Made by a program: the position numbers and the translations under genes
The notes under the pieces: model-generated
The model's input: only the letters and a program-made list of their open reading frames with translations
What the model was told of the DNA's origin: nothing
Database searches by the model: none
Shown: one piece after another, positions 9,502 through 55,971 of the stretch
Layout of the letters: every line of letters starts with the position of its first letter
How positions within the stretch are numbered: the first letter of the stretch is position 1
Source: a bacterium
GTDB lineage: Bacteria > Bacillota_I > Bacilli_A > Mycoplasmatales > Mycoplasmoidaceae
Reading direction: 5' to 3'
Length of the DNA stretch: 64,000 nt
Assembly (NCBI GenBank): GCA_017445805.1
Contig: JAFSSC010000002.1
Location: forward strand, 1 to 64,000

Positions 9502-10794
9502 ATGAATTTTGTCAATATTATTCAAAAAAAAGCAAAAAAAAATAGATTAAATAGGCAAGAAATTGATTATGTGATCAAAAACATTGTTTATGGAAAAATT
9601 CCTGATTATTTGATTACTTCTTGATTAATGGCACTTTATATTAATAATTGTAGTTTGGATGAAGCCTATTTTTTAACATTAGCAATGTGAAAATATAGTA
9701 AAAAAATTGACTTAACAAAATTAAAGACTAAATATCCTATCATTGATAAGCATTCAACTGGTGGTGTTGGCGACAAAGTAACATTAATTTTGGCACCAAT
9801 TATTGCATCATTAGGTATATCGGTTGCAAAATTATCAGGTAAAGGACTTGGTTTTACCGGGGGAACAATTGATAAATTAGAATCTATTGGTTGCCAAACA
9901 GAATTGTCACAAAAACAAATGATTAAATTATTAAAAGAAAATAATCTTTTTGTTGCTAGTCAAACAAAAGACATAGCACCTGCTGATAAAATTTTATACA
10001 ATTTACGTGACTTAACAGGAACAGTTGATAATTATGGTTTAATTGCTAGTTCAATTTTAGCCAAAAAATTTGCGATTATAGGTACCCATGTTTTTTTAGA
10101 TGTTAAATATGGTTCAGGGGCTTTTTGTCAAACATATCAGCAAGCGAAGCAATTAGTCAAATATTTAAAATATATCGCTAAAAAAATGGAAAGGAAATTG
10201 ACAATTATTATTTCGTCAATGCAACAACCGTTGGGCAAAGCAATTGGTAATCTTATTGAAATAAAGGAAGCAATCGATTTTCTTTCAGGTAATGTTGCCA
10301 ATTATCCAGATCTTAAAAAATTAATTTATGAATTTGCAATAAAAATTTTAGTGGAGACAAAAAATATATCTTTTTTGCAAGCGAAAAAAAAAATTGATTT
10401 TGTTATTAGGTCAAAAAAAGCGTTGAATAAGTTTTATTTATGAATTAAAAAACAAAAAGGAATTGATTTAACAAAAAGTGATTTACCTTTTAATCCTAAG
10501 CATAGACTTTTAATTAAAGCAAATAAATCTGGTTATCTAAAATGAAAATCAACAGCTCAAATTGGTAATATATGTAAAGATTTAGGCGCGGGGCGAATAA
10601 AAAAAGCAGATAAAATTGATTTTCAAGCAGGAATATATTTAATGAAGAAAATTGGTGATTATGTTAAAGTCAACGAAATAATCGCAATATTTTATTCATC
10701 AACAGTAATTAGCATTGATACAAAACGAAGATTTATCGACAATATTGTTCTTGCGAATGAAAAAAATATAGTATCACCGATTGTTGCGAAATAA
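9502..10794 (+). CDS. deoA: Pyrimidine-nucleoside (thymidine) phosphorylase
   Basis: 430 aa, read through five TGA codons as Trp. It performs phosphorolysis of thymidine, deoxyuridine or uridine in nucleoside salvage. Family features in order: an N-terminal helical domain, the KHSTGGVGDK phosphate-binding motif near residue 83, GLGFTGGTIDKLES, YNLRDLTGTVDN, LDVKYGSGAF, and the C-terminal alpha/beta domain with GAGR. Full length and intact, unlike the three other copies or fragments in this window (35097-36310, about 11515-11765 and about 39095-39250). Confidence 0.95.
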
Positions 10795-35096: not shown

Positions 35097-36310
35097 ATGA
35101 ACTTTGTTAGTGTTATTCACAAAAAAGCGAGGAAAAATAAATTGAATAAGCAAGAAATTGATTATTCGATTAAAAGCATTGTTGAGGGGAAAATTTCCGA
35201 TTATTTAATTACTGCTTGATTAATGGCATTCCACATTAATAATTGTAGTTTGGATGAAGCTTATTTTTTGACTTTAGCAATGTGAAGATATAGTGAAAAA
35301 ATTGATTTAATAAAATTTAAATCTCAATATCCGATCATTGACAAGCATTCAACTGGTGGGGTTGATGATAAAGTAACATTGATTTTAGCACCGATTGTTG
35401 CATCATTAGGTGTATCAATTGCGAAATTATCTAGCAAAGGTCTCGGTTTTACTGGGGGAACAATTGATAAATTACAATCAATTGGTTGTAAAACAGAATT
35501 ATCAAAAAAGCAAATGATTTCATTATTGAAGGAAATCAATATTTTTGTTGCTAATCAAATGAATGATATTGTTCCAACCGACAAAATCTATATAATTTGC
35601 GTGATTTAACAGGCACAGTCGATAATTATGGTTTGATTGCTAGTTCAATCTAAAAAATTTACCGTTTTAGGTACACATGTTTTTTAGATGTTAAATATGG
35701 TTCATGTGCTTTTTGTCAAACATATCAACAAGTAAAACAACTAGTCAAATATTTAAAATATATTGCCAAAAATACAACGAAGATTAATAATTATTATTTC
35801 TTCAATGCAGCAACCATTAGGAAAAGCAATCGGTAATCTCATTGAAATAAAAGATGTAATAGATTTTCTTTCAGGTAATGTTAACAAATATTCTGATATC
35901 AAAAAATTAATTTATAAATTCACAATAAAAATTTTAAGCGAAACGAAAAAATATATCTTCTAGTGTGGCAAAAGAAAAAATCGATTTTGTTATTGAATCA
36001 AAGCGAGCATTAAATAAGTTTTATTTATGAATTAAAAAGCAAAAAGTATTAGATTTAACACAAAAAAATAAATTACCATTTAATCCAATATAAACTTTTA
36101 ATTGAGGCAAATAAAATAGGTTATTTAAAATTCAAATCTACAGTTGTGATTGGCAACATATGCAAAAGTTTAGGTGAAGGAAGATTAGAAAAGGAGATAA
36201 AATTGATTTTCAAGCAAGAGTATACTTAATGAAAAAAATGGGTGATCATATCAAGGTTAATGAAACAATTGCAATATTTTATTCATCAAAGAAGATTAAC
36301 ATTATATTTT
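35097..36310 (+). pseudogene. deoA pseudogene (second copy)
   Basis: It is closely similar to the intact deoA at 9502-10794 from the ATG onward (KHSTGGVDDK, GLGFTGGTIDKLQS and SSMQQPLGKAIGNLIEIK are all readable). It contains frameshifts (near 35586, 35650, 35685, 35777 and 35960) and stops, and it lacks the last part of the gene beyond the FYSS segment. One visible substitution changes the phosphate-binding GVGDK to GVDDK. It lies between the copied dnaK 3' end and the intact repeat lipoprotein. Confidence 0.92.
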
Positions 36311-55734: not shown

Positions 55735-55811
55735 GGGAGTATAGCTCAGTTGGTTAGAGCACACCCCTGATAAGGGTGAGGTCGATAGTTCGAGTCTATT
55801 TACTCCCACCA
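55735..55811 (+). tRNA. trnI: tRNA-Ile (anticodon GAT)
   Basis: 77 bases with encoded CCA. Acceptor GGGAGTA/TACTCCC, D-loop with G18-G19, anticodon loop CTGATAA, T-loop TTCGAGT. All canonical, which makes it a useful control for the two unusual tRNAs that follow. Confidence 0.96.
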
Positions 55812-55812
55812 C

Positions 55813-55887
55813 GGGGGTATAGCTCAATGATAGAGCACTTGATTTGCACTCAAGGGGTTGTGGGTTTGAGTCCCATTACTTCCACCA
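55813..55887 (+). tRNA. trnA: tRNA-Ala (anticodon TGC) with an altered 19-56 pair
   Basis: 75 bases with encoded CCA; acceptor GGGGGTA/TACTTCC with two G-U pairs; anticodon loop TTTGCAC. D-loop reads AATGATA, so position 19 is A (not G). T-loop reads TTTGAGT, so position 56 is T (not C). Together they can form an A19-U56 pair in place of the conserved G19-C56. All stems pair. Confidence 0.93.
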
Positions 55888-55897
55888 TAAAAATTTA

Positions 55898-55971
55898 AGG
55901 GATTTAGTTTAATGTTAGAACGGTAAGCTCCAAACTTACTAGTATGGGTTAAAGTCCTGTAATCCCTGCCA
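55898..55971 (+). tRNA. trnW: tRNA-Trp (anticodon CCA) with an altered 19-56 pair
   Basis: 74 bases with encoded CCA; acceptor AGGGATT/AATCCCT; anticodon stem GTAAG/CTTAC around CTCCAAA. It reads UGG. D-loop AATGTTA gives T at position 19, and T-loop TTAAAGT gives A at position 56, so a U19-A56 pair replaces G19-C56. The T-stem contains G-U pairs. The UGA-reading tRNA-Trp (UCA) is not in this window. Confidence 0.92.

Follow-up and report, generated by a model that had tools for sequence, protein, structure and literature searches.

The Levitt pair of tRNA, between positions 15 and 48, is a tertiary pair whose letters covary, appearing as G-C or A-U. At the elbow, where the D-loop meets the T-loop, positions 19 and 56 form a Watson–Crick pair, and the L1 stalk and other partners stack on its flat face (PMC4810234, PMC5309774). 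It is through G19-C56 that the ribosome, RNase P, RNase Z and T-box RNAs contact the elbow. A partner that stacks on a flat pair may be indifferent to the letters that form it. An engineered A19/U56 pre-tRNA-Gly is cleaved by AtPRORP3 nearly like the wild type, with a k of 1.78 and a KM of 7.7 compared with 1.67 and 4.8 for the wild type (PMC5039416).

Here we describe natural tRNAs in which both letters of this pair have been exchanged. We found no description of A19-U56, of 19-56 covariation or of A18-G55 in the open-access literature, although the sequences themselves are publicly available and the structural rule belongs to textbook knowledge; the swaps apparently represent an under-described covarying tertiary pair of tRNA.

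Two swapped elbows in one tRNA cluster

The window, meaning the whole stretch of 64,000 nucleotides analysed here, comes from a genome of the Mycoplasmoidaceae and contains five tRNA genes, including an Ile-Ala-Trp cluster at 55735-55971. ARAGORN and the Rfam tRNA model each returned the same three genes, listed here with the positions that matter in cloverleaf numbering.

55735..55811, + strand: tRNA-Ile(GAT), which opens the cluster; G19-C56
55813..55887, + strand: tRNA-Ala(TGC); A19-U56
55830, + strand: position 19 of tRNA-Ala, A
55867, + strand: position 56 of tRNA-Ala, T (U in the tRNA)
55898..55971, + strand: tRNA-Trp(CCA); U19-A56
55915, + strand: position 19 of tRNA-Trp, T (U in the tRNA)
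55951, + strand: position 56 of tRNA-Trp, A

An earlier note on this DNA had read A19/T56 in tRNA-Ala(TGC) and T19/A56 in tRNA-Trp(CCA), and both readings are borne out by the gene calls and by the letters of the loops (D-loop AATGATA and T-loop TTTGAGT in Ala; AATGTTA and TTAAAGT in Trp(CCA)). The letters G19 and C56 are absent from both tRNAs, and in each the two positions are able to form a Watson–Crick pair, A-U in Ala and U-A in Trp(CCA). The window's Ile, Thr and Arg tRNAs keep G19-C56 on cloverleaf reading, as had also been claimed.

The elbow of the two swapped tRNAs is otherwise canonical, with G18, U55, U54-A58 and G53-C61. A better cloverleaf that restores G19 and C56, the objection that the earlier note raised against itself, is excluded, because G18, U54, U55, A58 and the seven-nucleotide T-loop fix the register. 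Both genes lie above the Rfam cut-off of 29 (66.3 bits for Ala, 59.5 bits for Trp(CCA)), and the Rfam tRNA model flagged no non-standard stem pairs in either. tRNA-Ala presents a UGC anticodon in a cloverleaf with all stems intact; its acceptor strands, GGGGGTA opposite TACTTCC, include G3-U70, the alanine identity element, and position 73 is A. tRNA-Trp(CCA) has its CCA anticodon, G73, an encoded CCA end and stems that are paired throughout.

Other tRNAs of the same genome

The source assembly (429 kb, with TGA read as Trp) is fragmented and 67% complete, and 20 of the 23 tRNAs recovered from it have G19-C56. The third exception, a tRNA-Gly(GCC) with A19-U56, lies on the same contig outside the window (G000:C5:122300-122373) and coexists in this genome with Gly(TCC); in M. 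mycoides, all four Gly codons are read by the Gly(UCC) tRNA (PMC10853795). Two of the three swapped tRNAs of the genome, Gly(GCC) and Trp(CCA), may be redundant. When the genome is taken together with one complete relative, the 58 tRNAs comprise 52 G-C, 5 A-U and 1 U-A without a mismatch (Fisher p = 2.5e-8, each tRNA being taken as independent), and the pairing of 19 with 56 in this set is not chance.

Elsewhere in the window, an ORF at 9502-10794 (430 aa) resembles a thymidine/pyrimidine-nucleoside phosphorylase, a guess from its translation, and 35097-35609 (170 aa) is a shortened, diverged copy of about the first 165 residues of this putative phosphorylase.

Covariation of positions 19 and 56 in the family and order

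Counts across 95 genomes of the family were made with a pattern in four forms, confined to tRNAs whose D-stem is GCTC/GAGC and whose variable loop has five nucleotides, related genomes being counted separately. G19-C56 accounted for 832 matches and a change at both positions for 73, all of them A19-U56; single changes occurred once as A19-C56 and once as G19-U56, placing mismatches at 2 of 907 matches. The corresponding Fisher p is 6e-106 for genomes that are kin, and because of this relatedness the number of distinct isoacceptor–clade cases is the safer argument: by our own count, with independence judged by isoacceptor and clade, there are at least a dozen. When the search for double changes was extended to 320 genomes of the order, 81 matches resulted, of which 80 were A-U, one was C-G and none was a mismatch. 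No 19-56 mismatch was found among U55 tRNAs in 202 distinct mollicute tRNAs, a set biased towards swaps.

tRNA-Ala is A19-U56 in most Mycoplasmoidaceae genomes inspected and in every genus but g4 and g5, where it is G19-C56. In the complete genome G019 (580,076 bp; 35 distinct tRNAs from 36 matches), the sole tRNA-Ala, tRNA-Asp and tRNA-Glu recovered are all A19-U56. As its single tRNA-Ala has this pair, the swapped form must work, and such a case, in which a complete genome offers no other isoacceptor than the swapped one, is the strongest evidence that it does.

The swap also occurs in Arg(UCG) in genus g9 and in G002, in Asn in g5, in Pro in g4, in Glu(CUC) in G005, in Asp and Glu(UUC) in G019, in Arg(CCU) in f5 and in Met in f4. 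In genus g1, which includes the window's genome (G000), it affects Gly(GCC) and Trp(CCA), the former being A-U in G000, G001, G002 and G004 and, on visual reading of the reverse-complemented L081, in G005 as well. G036, a small genome of another family, combines a U19-A56 Trp(CCA) with the following tRNA.

G036:C1:618763-618814 (L260): tRNA-Asn(GTT), C19-G56, the fourth Watson–Crick orientation, seen once

The swap beyond mollicutes

A scan of named genomes with a pattern that demanded A or T at both 19 and 56 matched at least 119 stretches, mostly from Bacteroidales; given that demand, it yields no overall frequency. Among the matches listed, 80 loci divide into 76 A-U, 3 U-A and 1 A-A, and mollicutes are absent. 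The 79 assigned tRNAs among these listed matches include 47 Gly(UCC), 13 Ala(CGC) and 8 Gly(GCC), besides small numbers of Thr, Met, Lys and Gly(CCC), so that 56 of the 79 are Gly and 13 are Ala; U19-A56 falls in two Gly(GCC) and one Met. Outside mollicutes, A19-U56 is present in Gly(UCC) of Bacteroidales and in Ala(CGC) of several phyla, Saccharibacteria and Opitutae being among the groups concerned, and the cases cover bacteria and archaea. The elbow swap is widespread, mollicutes being one case. The earlier note had described the exchange in two neighbouring tRNAs: both are indeed swapped, but the same exchange is found in Gly(GCC), in many relatives and in unrelated bacteria.

The prevalence of Gly and Ala among the matches listed could suggest that A19-U56 is selected for itself, for example through recognition by alanyl-tRNA synthetase or as an elbow mark of certain tRNAs, as could its retention in Ala over most genera of the family and the reported targeting of the D-loop of tRNA-Ala by a C-terminal domain of C. 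elegans AlaRS (PMC10485164). We consider this unlikely: the switched isoacceptors vary by clade, Ala in g4 and g5 is G19-C56 within the same family, and the enrichment in Gly and Ala reflects biased sampling, as Bacteroidales dominate the matches listed.

Three pairs in tRNA-Trp(CCA)

Within genus g1, Trp(CCA) is G-C in G003 and G005, A-U in G002 and U-A in G000, G001 and G004; in G022, of genus g9, it is G-C. Among the 320 genomes of the order, the pattern found five Trp(CCA) without C56, and the pair is kept in all five (four U-A and one A-U, the fourth U-A being that of G036). G000, G001 and G004 form one group in an EF-Tu tree that settles no other branching within g1; Trp(CCA) in this genus may have passed from G-C through A-U to U-A or may have undergone two separate changes. 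The covarying pairs that the earlier note had sought in sister species are present in G001 and G004, with the same letters.

The window's genome has a second tRNA-Trp, intact, with a UCA anticodon and G19-C56 (L006). In 30 ORFs, TGA outnumbers TGG by 107 to 35, and the G+C content of the window is 26%. Both UGA and UGG should be readable by a UCA anticodon, which probably makes Trp(CCA) redundant. An intact second copy, which according to the earlier note might expose a swapped gene as a pseudogene, was not found for Ala(UGC) among the 23 tRNAs that this 67%-complete assembly yielded; for tryptophan, the intact second tRNA is Trp(UCA), with a different anticodon.

With Trp(UCA) present, and with 18 sites differing between G000 and G003 in Trp(CCA) against 9 in Trp(UCA), Trp(CCA) might be viewed as decaying towards a pseudogene in which U19-A56 arose by chance. 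This appears distinctly unlikely for a gene whose stems all pair, whose G73 and encoded CCA end are intact and which reaches 59.5 bits with the Rfam model; moreover, the same pair recurs in G001 and G004 and in the Trp(CCA) of another family (G036). Given that two of the three swapped tRNAs may be redundant, weak constraint combined with chance pairing may apply to Trp(CCA) alone. Sequencing or assembly error, which a fragmented, 67%-complete assembly might invite, is ruled out in practice by the sequences of relatives, as each gene has two matching changes, separate genomes (G001, G004) share the same letters and Ala A19-U56 is family-wide, single-contig genomes included.

Further readings of the elbow

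Across the order, 19-56 is seen as G-C, A-U, U-A and, once, C-G. In tRNA-Ile of G026, G008, G033, G017, G018, G027 and G009 (L040, L045-L050), A18-G55 seems to have replaced G18-U55 with G19-C56 kept, a reading based on a T-loop that opens with TGC in place of TTC and on a D-loop read as A18-G19. Met, Glu, Trp(TCA) and Pro of G036 (L052, L260) can be read in the same way, Pro ambiguously. The T-loop of tRNA-Gly(GCC) in G109 (L106), TCCGATT, has C55 rather than U55 with G18-G19 kept; this is a single case and could be an error.

A proposed basis for the swap

We propose that the swaps very probably reflect selection on a Watson–Crick elbow pair whatever its letters, together with AT-biased drift and relaxed constraint on Trp(CCA). 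Selection would act on a paired, stackable 19-56 elbow in which the letters G and C are immaterial. In an AT-rich genome, G-C would give way to A-U by two transitions, presumably by way of a brief G-U or A-C intermediate, while purifying selection would remove the mismatches lying between equivalent pairs. In Trp(CCA), probably redundant, looser constraint could let the pair turn to U-A. The selection for pairing that the earlier note claimed is strongly supported by the recurrence of identical letters in G001 and G004, the family-wide swap in Ala, the three Watson–Crick pairs of Trp(CCA) in one genus and the scarcity of mismatches (2/907). We infer that the window's swapped tRNAs function; their swaps are real and appear functionally ordinary.

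A broader proposal, to which we give even chances, is that the D-loop/T-loop elbow of the order is freely rewritable if its geometry is kept, with 19-56 in all four pairs and 18-55 also switching jointly in some tRNAs. If this is true, the textbook-invariant letters of the elbow would be replaceable in pairs. Natural A-U, U-A and C-G tRNAs can already serve as controls for whether partners read the letters or the flat pair, and the recurrent swaps are a countable instance of compensatory change in a tertiary contact. A tRNA finder or quality filter that gives credit for G19 and C56 would score working tRNAs too low.

Comparison with known elbows

Relative to the canonical G19-C56 elbow (PMC4810234, PMC7912444), the swapped tRNAs use the same positions with the same pairing potential and keep G18, U54, U55, R57 and A58; they differ in having A-U or U-A, such that the face turned towards the L1 stalk, RNase P and protein L5 differs in identity. 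The double change G19A/C56U in pre-tRNA-Gly (PMC5039416) is the same as that in nature, although it is a laboratory construct assayed with a plant protein-only RNase P. A19-U56 in Gly(UCC) of Bacteroidales and in Ala(CGC) elsewhere is the same compensated pair in other isoacceptors and other lineages. In contrast to the Levitt pair 15-48, with its accepted covariation, 19-56 is treated in the literature consulted as conserved or invariant.
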